Shown here: piece after piece, positions 30,323 to 43,630 of the stretch | Layout of the letters: every line of letters begins with the position of its first letter | Position numbering within the stretch: the first letter of the stretch is position 1 | DNA from: Pseudomonas fluorescens Q2-87 | GTDB lineage: Bacteria > Pseudomonadota > Gammaproteobacteria > Pseudomonadales > Pseudomonadaceae | Reading direction: 5' to 3' | Assembly (NCBI RefSeq): GCF_000281895.1 | Contig: NZ_CM001558.1 | Location: forward strand, 3,414,556 to 3,478,555 | Length of the DNA stretch: 64,000 nt | Made by a program: the position numbers and the translations under genes | Notes under the pieces: generated by a model | Told to the model about the DNA's origin: nothing | Databases searched by the model: none | What the model saw: only the letters and a program-made list of their open reading frames with translations

Positions 30323-31855
<1,533 letters not shown>

Positions 31856-31912
31856 GGTAGTGATGACCCTCCAGGGTTCGTATGACCCTTGGCAACCAGG
31901 GTGACAATCACC
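31856..31912 (+). promoter_or_regulatory. Three NorR-type GGT-N7-ACC boxes upstream of ytfE
   Basis: GGT-N7-ACC occurs at 31856-31868, 31875-31887 and 31900-31912 (spacings 19 and 25 bp), the form reported for NorR of Ralstonia. The outer two nearest the promoter extend to AGGGT-N7-ACCCT. They start one base outside the norR ATG. Confidence 0.78.
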
Positions 31913-31951: not shown

Positions 31952-31968
31952 TTGGCACGTCGGCTGCA
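31952..31968 (+). promoter_or_regulatory. Sigma-54 promoter of ytfE
   Basis: TTGGCACGTCGGCTGCA has GG at 31954-31955 and GC at 31966-31967, exactly ten bases apart, as in the -24/-12 consensus TGGCAC-N5-TTGCW. It lies 41 bases past the third NorR box and about 44 bases before the ytfE start. Confidence 0.82.
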
Positions 31969-32011: not shown

Positions 32012-32689
32012 ATGATGAGCCTCGATCTGCTGGAACAAAGCCTCGGCCAACTGGCCTGCGACATTCCCGGTGCCACCCGTACCTTCCATCATTACAACCT
32101 CGACTTCTGTTGCGGCGGACAAAAATCCCTGCGCGAAGCCGCCCTGGTTAAAGGCCTGAACCCGCTGCTGATCGCCGATGCCCTGCGCACCCTGCAAGCC
32201 GCTGGAGAGTTGGGCCATGACTGGCGCGACGAGCCCCAGGCATTGCTGATCAGCCACATCCTGGAACGCTACCACGCCCGCCATCGCGAACAACTGCCGG
32301 AACTCATCCGCCTGGCCCGTCGCGTCGAGCAGGTCCATGGTGCGCGGGCCAGTTGCCCGAACGGCCTGGCCGATCACCTGCAGGACATGTATCAGGAACT
32401 CGAAGGCCACATGCTCAAGGAAGAACAGGTGCTGTTCCCGATGCTGCAACAGGGTCTCGGCGAACGGGCCTCGGCGCCGATCCAGGTGCTGCGTTTCGAG
32501 CACGACCAGCACGGTGAAGCGCTGGAAACCATGCTCACCCTCACCGACCAGATCACCCCGCCCTCCGACGCCTGCAACACCTGGCGTGCCCTGTATCGCG
32601 GGCTGGTGGAGTTCCGTGATGACCTGATGCAGCACATCCACCTGGAAAACAATGTGCTGTTCGTCAATGCGATGAAGCCTGCCCGCTAA
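32012..32689 (+). CDS. ytfE: YtfE/RIC (DnrN-like) di-iron repair protein
   Basis: 225 residues. The N-terminal ScdA-type segment has FCCGGQKSL (Cys pair) and the C-terminal hemerythrin domain has the di-iron His and Glu residues (ILERYHARHREQLPEL, HMLKEEQVLFPM, FEHDQHGEAL, HIHLENNVLF). It repairs iron-sulfur clusters damaged by nitric oxide. Two ATGs in tandem follow AAGGAAAC; the first is used. Its promoter carries NorR boxes and a sigma-54 element. Confidence 0.93.
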   Translation: MMSLDLLEQSLGQLACDIPGATRTFHHYNLDFCCGGQKSLREAALVKGLNPLLIADALRTLQAAGELGHDWRDEPQALLISHILERYHARHREQLPELIRLARRVEQVHGARASCPNGLADHLQDMYQELEGHMLKEEQVLFPMLQQGLGERASAPIQVLRFEHDQHGEALETMLTLTDQITPPSDACNTWRALYRGLVEFRDDLMQHIHLENNVLFVNAMKPAR

Positions 32690-33333: not shown

Positions 33334-34521
33334 TCATCCCGGATGCCCGTCCACCCGGGCCCGTACCAACATCGGCGCGTAGCGCCAGGCGTAGAGCCCG
33401 AAGGCCAGGATCCAGCACAGCCCCGCCAGCCACAGCGCGGCCAATGGAAATACCAGAACCAGCCACACGCGGCTCAGGCACGCGAGGTTCAGCAGGATAA
33501 ACGCCTGGGTCATCCCCCGTGGCGGCTCCAGGGACCGGCCGGTATGGCCCAGCGTCACCCGGGCAATCATCGCCAGGATCAGCCCGGACATGGCCCCGAT
33601 GGTCAGGCTGTGCACCGCCAGGCTTGGATTCAGCGGCACACCCAAGTGCCACAGCGCCATGCCCAGGCAGGCCAAGGCAAGCCAGGCGTAGGCCAGGTGC
33701 AACGACCACAGCAGCGGCACTCGCCACACGCCCCGGTCATGCCAGCGCACCAGCCGAATCCCGTGCCCCACCGTCAGCGCGGCGAACAGCAGGCCGACCC
33801 AGGCGTTGGCCGACAGCGCCGTACCGAAGGCATACAACAACGCCACCAGTGCCGATCCTGCCAGCAATAACCGATCGAGCCACGGCCACGGCGCAACGCC
33901 CTCGACCCGACCAAGACCGCGCTGAGTGAAGAACGGAATCACCCGCCCGCCGATCAGCCCCATCATCGCCGCCACCAGCCACAGGCCAGTGAGCACGCTT
34001 TGGCGCTGCAAACCCTCGTTGTGCTGCAGCAGGCCGTACACCGACAACCCGTCGGCAGCGGCGAGCAACAGCAATACCAGCACAATCGGGTAATTGCGTT
34101 TTTGCCGCACACGCCACAAGGTCACGCCCATCAACGCAGCCACCGCCAGGGCGAAGCCCAACTCCAGCGTGGCCAGCAGCGGCCAGGGCGCGTCGACCAA
34201 CCAGGCCAGCCGCGCGCCCAGCCACAACAGCGCCAGTGCCGCGAGGCGCTTGCCGCTGAGCCCCGGGGTGCCCGTCCAGGTCTGCACCGCCGTCAGCAGG
34301 AACCCGGCGATGATCGCCAGGCCAAAACCGAACAACAGTTCGTGACGGTGCCAGGCCAACCAGCCGCCTGCCGGCTGCCAGGCCGAGCGCCCCGTGAATG
34401 CCAGCAGCCAAAGGGGGATGGTCAACAGCGCCAAGACACAGCCTGCCAGGAAGAACGGCCGAAACGCCAGGCGCCACAGCGGCAGGATGGCCATGGCCTT
34501 GCGACGGTCAAGCACTTGCAT
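33334..34521 (-). CDS. nnrS: NnrS family heme-copper membrane protein
   Basis: 395 residues, about 12 helices, NnrS family (WRLAFRPFFLAGCVLALL, AWHRHELLFGFGLAIIAGFLLTA, GGRVIPFFTQRG, ARVTLGHTGR). NnrS proteins occur with denitrification genes and protect cells from NO stress; the mechanism is not settled. The internal ATG is chosen for its AAAGGAG. A likely operon with the CopD-like gene 25 bp downstream; an ANR/DNR-like box is 92 bp upstream. Confidence 0.9.
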   Translation of the reverse strand: MQVLDRRKAMAILPLWRLAFRPFFLAGCVLALLTIPLWLLAFTGRSAWQPAGGWLAWHRHELLFGFGLAIIAGFLLTAVQTWTGTPGLSGKRLAALALLWLGARLAWLVDAPWPLLATLELGFALAVAALMGVTLWRVRQKRNYPIVLVLLLLAAADGLSVYGLLQHNEGLQRQSVLTGLWLVAAMMGLIGGRVIPFFTQRGLGRVEGVAPWPWLDRLLLAGSALVALLYAFGTALSANAWVGLLFAALTVGHGIRLVRWHDRGVWRVPLLWSLHLAYAWLALACLGMALWHLGVPLNPSLAVHSLTIGAMSGLILAMIARVTLGHTGRSLEPPRGMTQAFILLNLACLSRVWLVLVFPLAALWLAGLCWILAFGLYAWRYAPMLVRARVDGHPG

Positions 34522-34606
34522 ACACCACTCCTTTGCCCTCATCTGGCTCGCCAGCGAGGTACGACAAATCAGGGTTCGAATGATCGGCTATCGGCGCTGG
34601 CGAACC

Positions 34607-34620
34607 TTGTCTCAGATCAA
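34607..34620. promoter_or_regulatory. Weak ANR/DNR-like box upstream of nnrS
   Basis: TTGTCTCAGATCAA keeps a perfect right half-site and three of five bases on the left. The position between nnrS and the dnr locus makes regulation of nnrS plausible. Confidence 0.45.
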
Positions 34621-34708
34621 GCCAGCCGGCCTCGGACAGACACTTGCAAAGGGCCTGCCGGAACGGCTTGGAGCTGGGTACCGTTTTTCAACCCTCCCCT
34701 TTTTCCTT

Positions 34709-34796
34709 GTGGGAGCGGGCTTGCTCGCGAATGCGGTGGCACACCCAATAGCGATGCAAGCTGACACACCGCCTTCGCGAGCAAGCCCGCTCCCAC
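34709..34796. repeat. REPIN, family C
   Basis: Inverted REP pair in the nnrS-dnr intergenic region, ending 10 bp before the first NorR-type box of the dnr promoter. Confidence 0.85.
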
Positions 34797-34805
34797 AAGA
34801 TTCAG

Positions 34806-34862
34806 GGTCTTTTTACCCTTTCATGGTTTTTATTACCCTAGCAGATCAGGGTCATTTATACC
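34806..34862 (+). promoter_or_regulatory. Three NorR-type boxes upstream of the dnr locus
   Basis: GGT-N7-ACC at 34825-34837 and 34850-34862, and a one-base variant GGT-N7-CCC at 34806-34818 (within AGGGTCTTTTTACCCT). Spacings of 19 and 25 bp are identical to the ytfE array at 31856-31912. Confidence 0.72.
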
Positions 34863-34901
34863 CTGAGGCCCGGCAACCCTCGAAATACAAGGTCCGCCGC
34901 C

Positions 34902-34918
34902 CTGGCCCGGCTCTTGCT
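34902..34918 (+). promoter_or_regulatory. Sigma-54 promoter of the dnr locus
   Basis: CTGGCCCGGCTCTTGCT has GG at 34904-34905 and GC at 34916-34917, ten bases apart, and fits TGGCAC-N5-TTGCW with one change. It is 41 bases past the third box, exactly as before ytfE. Confidence 0.76.
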
Positions 34919-34954
34919 CAGGCAGGGCACAGACTTTCTCCGCCGGGGTTCCCC

Positions 34955-35044
34955 ATGAAACACGTCGCGCTGCCCTTCACCTGGTTCGTCCTGCTCTCCT
35001 GCGTTGTCGCGCTCGCCAGCAGCCTGTCCCTGAGCCTGGTCTGA
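34955..35044 (+). CDS. 29-residue hydrophobic ORF upstream of dnr
   Basis: ATG to TGA, 29 residues: a short MKHVALPFTW start then a hydrophobic stretch (FVLLSCVVALASSLSLSLV), so a single membrane helix or leader. It is the first ORF after the inferred sigma-54 start point (about 34929) and ends 36 bp before the dnr ATG. The ribosome site is poor. It may be a real small membrane protein, a leader peptide or chance; I know no family for it. Confidence 0.4.
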   Translation: MKHVALPFTWFVLLSCVVALASSLSLSLV

Positions 35045-35080
35045 CCCTTTTCCTATTCCTGCCAACACAAGGACCGTCCC

Positions 35081-35764
35081 ATGGTGCTCCACCGTGTCCA
35101 TCACCAGATTCTGCGCAGCCATCACCTGTTCGAGCCGTTGAACGAAGAACAGCTCGACGAACTGATGAGCAACAGCCAACTGCTGAACATCGACAAGGGC
35201 GACCCGCTTTTCCGTCAGGGCGAGCCGGCCCAGGCGTTTTATTTCGTGATTTCCGGGGCCGTGAAAATCTACCGGCTGACCCCGGACGGCCAGGAAAAAG
35301 TCTTCGAGGTGATCGGCGAGCGCCAGACGTTCGCCGAAGCGATGATGTTGATGGACACGCCCAACTACGTGGCATCCGCCGAAGCCGTCGGGCCCAGCCA
35401 GGTGTATCGCCTGTCCAATGCCACCTACATGCGCCTGCTGCAAAGCAACAGCCGGTTGACGTTTGCCCTGCTCGGCAAGCTGTGCGTGCGCCTGCACCAG
35501 CGGGTCAATGAGATTGAAACCCTGTCGCTGAAAAACGCCACCCACCGCGTGGTGCGCTACTTACTGACGCAACTGGTGCGCCTGCAAACCGTGGACAGCC
35601 AGTTCGAACTGCCGATGGCCAAGCAATTGATTGCCGGACACCTGTCGATCCAACCGGAAACCTTCTCGCGGATCATCCGCCGCCTGATCGATGAAAAGAT
35701 CATCACCCAGGACGGCCGCCAAATTGCCATTCTTGATCGCCTGCGCCTGGAGCAATTCGAATGA
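35081..35764 (+). CDS. dnr: NO-responsive Crp/Fnr-family regulator DNR
   Basis: 227 residues closely resembling P. aeruginosa DNR by eye (VHHQILRSHHLFEPL, SGAVKIYRLTPDGQEKVFEV, MLMDTPNYVASAEAV, HRVVRYLLTQ and LSIQPETFSRIIRRL). It has no Fe-S cysteines; DNR senses NO through heme and activates nir and nor from TTGAT/ATCAA boxes such as those at 39916 and 41835. The ATG follows AAGGACCGTCCC. It overlaps dnrP (ATGA) and lies behind a NorR/sigma-54 promoter. Confidence 0.94.
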   Translation: MVLHRVHHQILRSHHLFEPLNEEQLDELMSNSQLLNIDKGDPLFRQGEPAQAFYFVISGAVKIYRLTPDGQEKVFEVIGERQTFAEAMMLMDTPNYVASAEAVGPSQVYRLSNATYMRLLQSNSRLTFALLGKLCVRLHQRVNEIETLSLKNATHRVVRYLLTQLVRLQTVDSQFELPMAKQLIAGHLSIQPETFSRIIRRLIDEKIITQDGRQIAILDRLRLEQFE

Positions 35765-35961
35765 GCGCGCAATCCCTTTGCCTGTACTGCCAACGCGCCA
35801 GCCCCGCCGATGAAACCGAATGCAGCCAATGCGGCATGCCGTTGCCCGCCGAAGCGGCGCTGGCCGGTGAACGTCGGTTGCGGCGCTTCACCTGGTTCTG
35901 TGTGGGGCTGACGATTTTCTGCATCGGCATGTTTTTCTGGTTGCCCCGCAGCATCGTTTGA
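35761..35961 (+). CDS. dnrP: DnrP-like zinc-ribbon membrane protein
   Basis: 66 residues: a CLYCQRA...CSQCGMPLP zinc ribbon (CxxC-x14-CxxC) followed by one membrane helix (TWFCVGLTIFCIGMFFWL). Similar small proteins next to dnr are named DnrP; their function is unknown. It overlaps the dnr stop by 4 bp. The convergent norD ends 4 bp away. Confidence 0.75.
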   Translation: MSAQSLCLYCQRASPADETECSQCGMPLPAEAALAGERRLRRFTWFCVGLTIFCIGMFFWLPRSIV

Positions 35962-35965
35962 GCCC

Positions 35966-37804
35966 TCAGTCTTGTGTCAACTGGCGGTACAACTGTGGCA
36001 GCCGCAACGGCAGCTGTTCGGGCTGGCGGATCAAGGTGTAGCCGTTGGCCCCAAACATGTACGGCAAATAATCCCCCGCTTCACGGTCAATGGTGATGCA
36101 AAACGGCGTCAGCCCCTGGCGCCGTGCCTCCAGCACCGCTTGGCGAGTGTCCTCCACGCCATAGCGCCCTTCGTAAAGGTCCAGGTCATTGGGCTTGCCA
36201 TCGCTGAGCAGCAACAACAATTTGCGCCGCCGCTTGCAGCCTTGCAGCCGCTGCGTGGCCTGGCGGATCGCCGCGCCCATGCGGGTGTAATAACCGGGCT
36301 TGAGCCCTTGGATCCGGCCTCGGGTGTGATCGTCATAGCGCTGGCCGAAGGCCTTGAGTTCATGCATCCGCACCTGCTGGCGCCGCAGTGAAGAGAACCC
36401 GTACAAGGCGAAATCATCCCCCAGCACCGCCAGGGTTTCACCGAACAGCAGCAGGCTGTCGCGAATCACGTCGATGACGCGATGCTCATCATTGAGGTGG
36501 GCGTCGGTGGACATCGACAGATCGGCCAACAGCAAGCAGGCCAAGTCGCGGCGAGTCTGGCGTTGCTCCATGAACAGGCCGCGTTCGCTGCACTGGCCGT
36601 GCTGGCGTTCGACGTGAAAATCCAGCCAGGCTTGCAGGTCCAGTTCCGAACCCTGGGTTTGCTGGCGCAGCCATTGGCGATCATTGCGCAGGTGTTCGAA
36701 CTGGCGGCGCAGGCGCTGGGCCGAGCTGCGCAGGCGTGCGGGCAATGGCTGAGGCTGACAATCGCGGGGGACAAACGTCTGCACGCTGACGAAATCGTCC
36801 TGCAGTCGTTGCTTGCGGTAGTCCCATTCCGGCAAGTGGATGCCCTCGCCCAAGGGGATGTCATCGACATCGGCCGGCGGCAGGTCCAGGTGCAGCTTCA
36901 AGCCGCCGCCCTTGCGCAGGCGGGTGCGCGACAAGGTCAACTGGTCCAGGTCTTCGGCGACGCGGGCGGCGTCCGGGTCTTCGCTGTCGTCCGCCCAGCG
37001 ATCCAGGTCCACGTGTTCGGTCCAGCTGAACAGGTTCTCCAGGCGCACGATCAACAATCCACCGTCGCGGGTGGTTTCGTCGATGCGTTCAGCGCGCTTG
37101 CGACCGCCCTGCTGCTCACCCGGCGGTGTCGCCAGGTACTGTTCGGATTCCTCCAGGTCCGCGGCCTGGGGGTTGGCGAGATGTTGGGGTGGGTATAGCC
37201 ACAACGGCAACGGCCAGGCCGCCCGCTCGCTGCGCGAGAAATGCTCGACACTGCCCGGCTCGCGTAGCGCTTGGCACAGCGCGCGCTCCAGAGCCGCTTC
37301 GGCCGGGTTGAGGGTGGCTGGGTCAGGGCGCAGGGACAGGTGCGCGTCCACCAGCCGCCGATAACGAGGGCGCATGGCCGGGTAGCGGTGCAGCACGGTT
37401 TGGGTCCACCGTTGATTGTCCCGCCCCCAGTGCGTCATCGGGCCAGACTGTGCGGCCAGCAACGCCAGCCAGCGATACAACTCTGCGTTGAGATCGACAT
37501 CGGGAAACGCCGCCAGGCTCGCCGGCAGGCGCAGGTTATCGGCATCGCACCAGGCCAAGGGCACTTGCTTGCAGGTGCCGGCGATCTGCTGCAGCAGGTT
37601 GCGGCGCAACAACAGGTCGCGGTCGCTGACCGCTTCCACCCCCAGGTGAGGCGCACCGCCAGTGGCGCGAAACAGCACCTGCAATGAGCGTTGCCGGGGC
37701 ACCAGCTCGACCCGGGCCTCAGGAAAATCAGCACTGGCCCGGCGGGTGATGAAACGGTGCCAGACACTGCCGACCCATTCTTCCAGCTCCAGGGTGAATG
37801 CCAT
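35966..37804 (-). CDS. norD: NO reductase activation protein NorD
   Basis: 612 residues. The C-terminal von Willebrand A domain has a MIDAS motif in LLLADLSMSTDA (DxSxS) and a later LLLLLSDGKPND; the N-terminal part is typical of NorD. It works with the MoxR-type ATPase NirQ/NorQ to mature NorCB. Separated from norB by a REPIN; the ATG has a TAAGAGGAGAATAACC-type ribosome site upstream. Confidence 0.93.
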   Translation of the reverse strand: MAFTLELEEWVGSVWHRFITRRASADFPEARVELVPRQRSLQVLFRATGGAPHLGVEAVSDRDLLLRRNLLQQIAGTCKQVPLAWCDADNLRLPASLAAFPDVDLNAELYRWLALLAAQSGPMTHWGRDNQRWTQTVLHRYPAMRPRYRRLVDAHLSLRPDPATLNPAEAALERALCQALREPGSVEHFSRSERAAWPLPLWLYPPQHLANPQAADLEESEQYLATPPGEQQGGRKRAERIDETTRDGGLLIVRLENLFSWTEHVDLDRWADDSEDPDAARVAEDLDQLTLSRTRLRKGGGLKLHLDLPPADVDDIPLGEGIHLPEWDYRKQRLQDDFVSVQTFVPRDCQPQPLPARLRSSAQRLRRQFEHLRNDRQWLRQQTQGSELDLQAWLDFHVERQHGQCSERGLFMEQRQTRRDLACLLLADLSMSTDAHLNDEHRVIDVIRDSLLLFGETLAVLGDDFALYGFSSLRRQQVRMHELKAFGQRYDDHTRGRIQGLKPGYYTRMGAAIRQATQRLQGCKRRRKLLLLLSDGKPNDLDLYEGRYGVEDTRQAVLEARRQGLTPFCITIDREAGDYLPYMFGANGYTLIRQPEQLPLRLPQLYRQLTQD

Positions 37805-37833
37805 GGTTATTCTCCTCTTAAGCCGAACCCATT

Positions 37834-37956
37834 GTGGCGAGGGGATTTATCCCCGCTGGGCTGCGAAACAGCCCCAATATGTCCGCTACTGCGGTGTATC
37901 AGACAGGATGTAGGGGGCCCGCTTCGCGCCCCAACGGGGATAAATCCCCTCACCAC
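37834..37956. repeat. REPIN, family B
   Basis: Inverted GTGGCGAGGGGATTTATCCC pair within the norCB-norD transcription unit, between norB and norD. Confidence 0.85.
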
Positions 37957-37986
37957 AAATGAGTTCGGCTCAGTCGCTGTGGTGAC

Positions 37987-39417
<1,431 letters not shown>

Positions 39418-39858
39418 TCAGCCCTCCTTGTTTGGCGGCCAGCCATTGGTGTTGATTTTCGAGCTCCACTTGAGGAACTCGGCGATGTCGTCGACTTCCT
39501 GCTCGCTCAGGTTGAACTGCGGCATGGCCCGACGGCCCGGAACGTTCAACGGCTGCATTTTCATCCAGGCGTGCAGGAACGGTTTGAAGGCTTCCTCGCC
39601 GCCACGGCGGTTGACCACGTTGCCCAGCTCCGGCGCAAAGTAAGCGCCCTCGCCCAGCAGCGTGTGGCAGCCGATGCAGTTGTTACGCTCCCAGACGCCC
39701 TTGCCGCGAATCACCGACTCGGTCAATTGCGCCTGGTTGCTGCGTTCCGGAAAGGTCTGTTCCGTGTGGTAGGTCAGGGCCAGGAATATCAGGAAAAAGA
39801 AGATGCTTCCCCCGAAATAAATATTCCTGGCCATGCCTTTGGTGAAGGTATCTGACAT
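39418..39858 (-). CDS. norC: Nitric oxide reductase cytochrome c subunit NorC
   Basis: 146 residues: N-terminal membrane anchor (IYFGGSIFFFLIFLAL) and one heme c site CIGCH (Cys61, Cys64, His65), with axial Met in the C-terminal part. It passes electrons from periplasmic cytochromes to NorB. First gene of norCB; a perfect ANR/DNR box is centred 64 bp upstream. Confidence 0.95.
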   Translation of the reverse strand: MSDTFTKGMARNIYFGGSIFFFLIFLALTYHTEQTFPERSNQAQLTESVIRGKGVWERNNCIGCHTLLGEGAYFAPELGNVVNRRGGEEAFKPFLHAWMKMQPLNVPGRRAMPQFNLSEQEVDDIAEFLKWSSKINTNGWPPNKEG

Positions 39859-39915: not shown

Positions 39916-39929
39916 TTGATGGCGATCAA
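39916..39929. promoter_or_regulatory. DNR/ANR box upstream of norC
   Basis: TTGATGGCGATCAA is a perfect TTGAT-N4-ATCAA centred 64 bp before the norC ATG, the expected control site of NO reductase by DNR. Confidence 0.82.

Positions 39930-40380: not shown

Positions 40381-43630
<3,250 letters not shown>

Follow-up and report, generated by a model that had tools for sequence, protein, structure and literature searches.

A predicted NorR-dependent sigma-54 promoter of dnr in Pseudomonas fluorescens Q2-87 and its conservation in the genus

Which regulator switches on dnr in Pseudomonas fluorescens Q2-87? The product DNR is itself responsive to nitric oxide (NO), and the initial annotation of the window (the whole stretch of 64,000 nucleotides that was analysed) read the region upstream of dnr as a NorR/sigma-54 promoter with its spacing copied from the ytfE promoter. 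By comparison, direct NorR/sigma-54 control of dnr is supported as the best explanation. We consider it very probable from the sequences that positions 34806 to 34918 are a NorR-dependent sigma-54 promoter of dnr, which would give a two-step NO relay from NorR to DNR.

The locus is a nitric oxide and denitrification cluster in which norR is followed by ytfE, a CopD-like gene, nnrS, a mini-ORF, dnr, a gene for 66 amino acids, norD, norB, norC and the nirS region. Nitrate reductase genes are found further upstream, as are genes for a sensor kinase and its response regulator that we read as narXL. The features are:

30323 to 31855, minus strand: norR, sigma-54 activator with GAF and AAA+ domains (NCBIfam NF003451 NorR, 688.6 bits, cut-off 476; Pfam GAF and Sigma54_activat)
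31856 to 31912, no strand: three NorR-type boxes of ytfE (starting at 31856, 31875 and 31900), exact GGT-N7-ACC
31953 to 31968, plus strand: sigma-54 -24/-12 element of ytfE, TGGCACGTCGGCTGCA
32012 to 32689, plus strand: ytfE/dnrN, di-iron Fe-S cluster repair protein (NCBIfam NF008221, 328.5 bits, cut-off 254)
33334 to 34542, minus strand: nnrS, divergent from dnr (Pfam NnrS, 362.6 bits)
34806 to 34818, no strand: NorR-type box 1 of dnr, one base short, AGGGT-N6-ACCCT
34825 to 34837, no strand: NorR-type box 2 of dnr, exact GGT-N7-ACC, GGTTTTTATTACC
34850 to 34862, no strand: NorR-type box 3 of dnr, exact GGT-N7-ACC, GGTCATTTATACC
34903 to 34918, plus strand: sigma-54 -24/-12 element of dnr, TGGCCCGGCTCTTGCT
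34955 to 35044, plus strand: hydrophobic mini-ORF of 29 amino acids between promoter and dnr
35081 to 35764, plus strand: dnr, Crp/Fnr-family regulator DNR (Pfam cNMP_binding and HTH_Crp_2)
35761 to 35961, plus strand: small protein of 66 amino acids with CxxC pairs, overlapping the dnr stop, matched beside dnr in named loci
35966 to 39858, minus strand: norD, norB and norC (Pfam VWA, COX1 and cytochrome c; the norC start is the likely one)

Among solved structures, the dnr product is closest to 3dkw (molecule 'DNR protein', E 3.1e-95, residues 3 to 227), which we take to be P. aeruginosa DNR. A C-terminal HTH was not among the Pfam matches of the norR product, the gene between ytfE/dnrN and nnrS is weakly CopD-like below Pfam's cut-off, and the 66-residue protein has no Pfam match. 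The mini-ORF is recognised in 74 of 81 loci, with exactly 29 amino acids in 67, and 57% of the counted differences fall on codon position 3. It forms the start of a longer protein in L072 (181 amino acids), and a similar start is seen in L158, from a genus outside Pseudomonas (g15), in a protein of 171 amino acids between ytfE and dnr.

Reading of the sequence and pattern scans confirmed the boxes and -24/-12 elements before ytfE and dnr at the positions first assigned to them. Box 1 of dnr deviates by one mismatch from GGT-N7-ACC and is better read as AGGGT-N6-ACCCT. In the nearest relatives of the window (L001 to L016), the box 1 position holds an exact GGT-N7-ACC and three exact boxes precede dnr. 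The region before dnr of the window contains tandem GT-N7-AC sites, two exact and one a base short, and norR is linked. Each of the two -24/-12 elements, starting at 31953 and 34903, is one base off TGGCAC-N5-TTGCW, which we assumed as the sigma-54 consensus for scoring. In the dnr element, GG and GC are ten bases apart, as for NorR-dependent sigma-54 promoters, and transcription would start near 34929. Just upstream of box 1, at 34706 to 34798, lies a REP-like inverted repeat.

A lone GGT-N7-ACC is frequent: the window holds 34, where 14.3 would be expected. When up to two mismatches are tolerated, the -24/-12 consensus is not overrepresented either (55 against 47.7), so the signal rests in the arrangement. 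This was matched in none of 40,000 dinucleotide shuffles of 34543 to 35080, where a match had boxes 2 and 3 exact, at most one mismatch each in box 1 and the -24/-12 element, and spacings within a few bases.

The spacings of 19, 25 and 54 bases (the last from the start of box 3 to the GG) are identical at ytfE and dnr in the window, and to this extent the claim of a base-for-base copy holds. The copying itself does not, as relatives space the two promoters differently. Among the 69 scored promoters of the window and 80 named loci, 19/25/54 is found before dnr in the window and L078 only; the commonest class is 20/24/54 (35/69), followed by 20/25/55 in 10 and 20/25/54 in 9, and the ytfE promoter is spaced 19/25/54 in 46/60. 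The identity in the window arises because dnr box 1 is one base short, and it is a coincidence, not a sign of copying. We also rejected the dnr promoter as a duplicate of the ytfE promoter: with box 2 in register, 74 of 171 positions are alike, and the spacing classes of relatives differ.

The motif scan that had been proposed as a check finds the promoter conserved. A strict pattern occurs in 58 of 398 Pseudomonas genomes and its reversed control in 0 of 398. All strict matches except one (57/58) precede dnr in the same orientation, at a distance of 38 to 187 bp in 55 genomes and of 375 and 712 bp in two. Orthologs of dnr are present in 87 of the 398 genomes; for the 30 of these without a strict match the sequence was read, and a relaxed class was assigned by eye and checked by one rule. 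Most of the dnr-bearing Pseudomonas genomes sampled share this wiring, which is not peculiar to this strain. The named loci are the best 80 of 158 dnr relatives, and since the 398-genome sample overlaps with them the two sets are not independent. From the 69 scored promoters, 65 stand before dnr or mini-ORF-dnr, two before a ytfE-dnr run (L055, L057) and two are decayed (L063, L065). No promoter precedes dnr in nine loci (L020, L052, L053, L054, L058, L060, L062, L068, L069). Loss of the promoter was considered and rejected for L061, L075 and L077, where the three boxes are intact and a REP-like repeat separates them from the -24/-12 element (seen in the sequence of L061 and L075 and in the box positions of the L077 genome). 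The displaced boxes of L061 and L075 constitute a natural test of enhancer distance.

Conservation is also seen column by column in 31 of the 80 loci, a set picked by the GGT half-sites and the -24/-12 pattern, in which the ACC halves are invariant though they were no part of the selection. Information content in these loci is 0.89 to 1.35 bits per column in the spacers inside boxes, 0.67 to 0.95 in the gaps between boxes and 0.79 from box 3 to -24, and falls to 0.35 before box 1 and 0.41 after -12. Two further arrangements were seen. L149 (G032) keeps norR, nnrS and a dnr-type promoter, with no match to dnr, ytfE, norD or norB in its 13-kb stretch. In L143, L144 and L145, as judged by eye, the stretch directly upstream of dnr resembles the 3' part of another Crp/Fnr-type regulator gene and holds no NorR boxes.

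The presence of the promoter follows that of the cluster NorR. We counted as NorR ortholog a match of at least 78% identity over at least residues 1 to 438, a class that is called full-length and includes three shorter matches (G272, 1 to 473; G222, 1 to 487; G052, 1 to 438); matches were ranked by E-value, with all full-length ones of at least 64% identity among the matches listed. Of the 398 genomes, 75 hold such an ortholog; 71 of these belong to the 87 dnr genomes, and in 71/71 a promoter stands before dnr or a ytfE-dnr run: 57 are strict, 10 relaxed (all with at most three mismatches in total by one rule), two have boxes displaced by a repeat (G169, G006) and two lie before ytfE-dnr (G239, G257). 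Without the ortholog, 15 dnr genomes lack an intact promoter and 1/16 has one, namely G303, with a ytfE-dnr promoter beside a NorR without GAF domain. G004 and G101 have a NorR without GAF domain and no promoter before dnr, and four of the 16 (G013, G054, G247, G316) have a NorR relative of 64 to 68% identity. The association has a Fisher p of 6e-16, inflated by kinship. The tree of 81 loci contains three independent NorR losses, and with so few the contrast of 71/71 against 1/16 is overstated through kinship; on this tree NorR loss was accompanied by promoter loss in about 2.8 of 3 pairings, with no case in the opposite direction (sign test p 0.25).

Individual genomes add detail. G015 has intact boxes although norR-ytfE is missing at the locus; its norR is found at another place in the genome. 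A genome-wide check of 24 named genomes agrees with the association, and eight genomes with neither promoter nor norR at the locus have only a 52 to 54% paralog. L063 and L065 have only a 51% NorR paralog and one mismatch in every box; G069, outside the 81 loci, has decayed boxes and a decayed -24/-12 element and no such NorR ortholog. Box mismatches despite NorR occur in L022 (two in box 1), L073 and G114 (one in each of two boxes), and single ones are seen, among others, in L029, L030, L033, L037, L072, L076 and L079. Counted regardless of NorR status, L154 (G567) carries one mismatch in every one of its three boxes. The NorR orthologs of L055, L057, L068 and L121 (73 to 77% identity) match only from about residue 175 to 180, the GAF domain being missing, and in the first three of these loci three exact NorR boxes still precede ytfE. 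The promoter is conserved, follows the NorR ortholog and, where a dnr genome lacks this ortholog, is in most cases decayed or missing. The comparison supports NorR/sigma-54 control, and with it the initial proposal that NorR would directly switch on dnr.

In the mechanism we propose, NO would activate NorR bound at the three predicted boxes before dnr, and NorR would enable RNA polymerase-sigma-54 to form the open complex at the -24/-12 element. The transcript would cover the mini-ORF, dnr and probably the 66-residue gene, and DNR would then act at FNR-type boxes before norCBD and nirS, perhaps also nnrS. Both steps of the relay would need NO. NorR binding, sigma-54 dependence, an NO response in the source strain, co-transcription and DNR action at its boxes are the inferred parts of this model, in which norD, norB and norC are candidate DNR targets. 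The candidate boxes for the second step are:

34607 to 34620, no strand: FNR/DNR-type box with two mismatches, TTGTCTCAGATCAA, 65 bp before nnrS and 474 bp from dnr
39916 to 39929, no strand: exact FNR/DNR-type box, TTGATGGCGATCAA, upstream of the likely norC start (39858)
41835 to 41848, no strand: FNR/DNR-type box with one mismatch, TTGATCGCCGTCAA, upstream of the likely nirS start (41951)

Of 72 loci, 66 have such a site, with no more than two mismatches, no farther than 200 bp from nnrS.

Expression data come from RNA-seq of P. donghuensis P482 with tomato exudate, where the available parts of PMC10256816 give log2 fold changes of 3.23 for dnr, 6.36 for ytfE, 6.13 for hmp, 4.99 for nnrS and 4.18 to 4.44 for norDBC. 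The nir genes were not raised, norR changed by -1.67, and with maize dnr changed by 0.31. The joint rise of dnr, ytfE, hmp and the nor genes agrees with induction of dnr by NO. NO stress in P482 is an inference of those authors, and the parts of their paper at hand contain no discussion of the dnr promoter. The promoter locus we examined belongs to strain HYS of the same species (L071). There, dnr is preceded by three perfect boxes and a -24/-12 element, the promoter lying 71 bp from the gene, and the nor/nir region has two FNR-type boxes as in the window. Against the reading of a NorR-DNR relay, norR itself falls, nir is not induced in P482 although nirS has an FNR-type box, and nnrS is up, yet there is no FNR-type box before nnrS of HYS. 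For the cascade from NorR through DNR to nir and nor, as first put forward, the boxes before norC and nirS are favourable and the nir response of P482 is not.

The strongest rival explanation is that dnr is driven mainly by ANR or DNR, as in P. aeruginosa, with the NorR boxes minor or vestigial. There the orthologous DNR is likewise the second tier over nor and nir genes, and the first tier is the low-oxygen regulator Anr, which regulates Dnr (PMC12403760, as far as its available text goes). The window differs in that it carries predicted boxes for the NO sensor NorR and, within 900 bp upstream of dnr, no FNR/ANR box with at most one mismatch and hence no ANR-type dnr promoter; the nearest candidate is the imperfect box beside nnrS. 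An arrangement of the P. aeruginosa kind may exist in L121, L128, L129 and L139, which have no NorR promoter and carry an imperfect CTTGTC-N4-ATCAAG or close variant about 200 bp before dnr; the NorR-type promoter is absent where such an FNR-type arrangement is seen. In the window's relatives, box halves and -24/-12 element are held far above the flanks, which is not expected of vestiges. We regard this explanation as improbable for the window.

Outside the genus, a search of the family matched 68 of 198 genomes, and upstream sequence was covered for 30 loci (L152 to L181) and 13 fetched stretches, with G546 and G577 in both. In the genus coded g15, presumably Stutzerimonas, ytfE lies upstream of dnr in 25 of 26 loci, and in 6/26 an FNR-type box, exact or with a single mismatch, is placed at about -95 to -100 relative to dnr. 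NorR boxes and a -24/-12 element precede ytfE in 8/26 (including G546 and G577), most of the other stretches ending too near. That g15 loci lack NorR control was therefore rejected, as boxes and element are found wherever the stretch reaches far enough. These norR-ytfE-...-dnr clusters likewise have NorR boxes and a -24/-12 element before a gene run ending in dnr, and differ in that the promoter lies before ytfE, more than 1 kb upstream of dnr, and is not dedicated to it. Among the 13 stretches, NorR boxes precede ytfE-dnr in three (G427, G546, G577), FNR-type boxes without NorR boxes precede ytfE-dnr in four (G507, G560, G496, G548), an FNR-type box stands before dnr in two (G422, and G577 as well as its NorR boxes), and five have neither type (G400, G412, G511, G419, G457).

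A second rival keeps the sigma-54 promoter and has its boxes used by a different activator, whether the NorR paralog linked to hmp or some other protein. Of 398 genomes, 383 contain one or more NorR-like matches, the source genome has a second one, and NorR-family sites share a GT-N7-AC core (PMC1274295, in the portion available). The hmp-linked paralog, however, occurs irrespective of the dnr promoter, whose presence follows the dnr-cluster NorR. The hmp-like gene, the only globin-family match in its own genome, has AGTC-N5-GACT repeats upstream (L195), not GGT-N7-ACC, which suggests that the two NorR paralogs may differ in DNA specificity. With GGT-N7-ACC common to dnr and ytfE and absent at the hmp-like gene, the cluster NorR is the likelier partner, and we think use of the boxes by another protein very unlikely. 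That the promoter mainly serves the 29-residue mini-protein, with dnr made from elsewhere, is hardly credible: the mini-ORF is the first reading frame past the promoter and looks selected as a protein, and G032 has the promoter with no dnr match, but P. donghuensis HYS has the promoter close to dnr with no mini-ORF recognised, and a scan of 34500 to 35100 turned up neither a sigma-70-like promoter nor a terminator-like site.

The predicted direct NorR/sigma-54 control of dnr resembles known systems in its sites and differs in its target. In the available parts of PMC1274295 (Rodionov et al. 2005), tandem GT-N7-AC upstream of a -24/-12 element with NorR as activator is given for norVW of E. coli and norAB of R. 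eutropha, and sites are predicted before hmp and dnrN of P. stutzeri; for this species those parts name hmp and dnrN, not dnr. All of these are genes for detoxification or repair enzymes, whereas here the target would be another NO-responsive regulator. Two published statements count against the reading: P. stutzeri ric/dnrN is credited to DnrD in the accessible part of a review (PMC9268430), and a paper on P. aeruginosa, as partly available (PMC9600465), describes RpoN in its discussion as a repressor of nirS, norC and nosR. We found no report of NorR acting on dnr in the part of the open-access literature that was covered, where PMC13086519 makes no mention of NorR, and the novelty is provisional.

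It is possible, and we put it forward tentatively, that NorR control of dnr, through a shared norR-ytfE-dnr or a dedicated promoter, is ancestral in much of the Pseudomonadaceae and that oxygen-sensor control in P. aeruginosa is derived; the result would be a coherent NO feed-forward loop with both tiers sensing NO, which also yields a conserved 29-residue membrane peptide. DNR sets the time at which NO and nitrite reductases are produced in a denitrifier, and hence how much NO and N2O escapes. Lineages that lost the cluster norR represent natural controls. Should dnr be switched on by NorR, these soil pseudomonads would commit themselves to removing NO as soon as it appears, even in air, and would not wait for falling oxygen. 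P. aeruginosa would then be a poor model of its genus.
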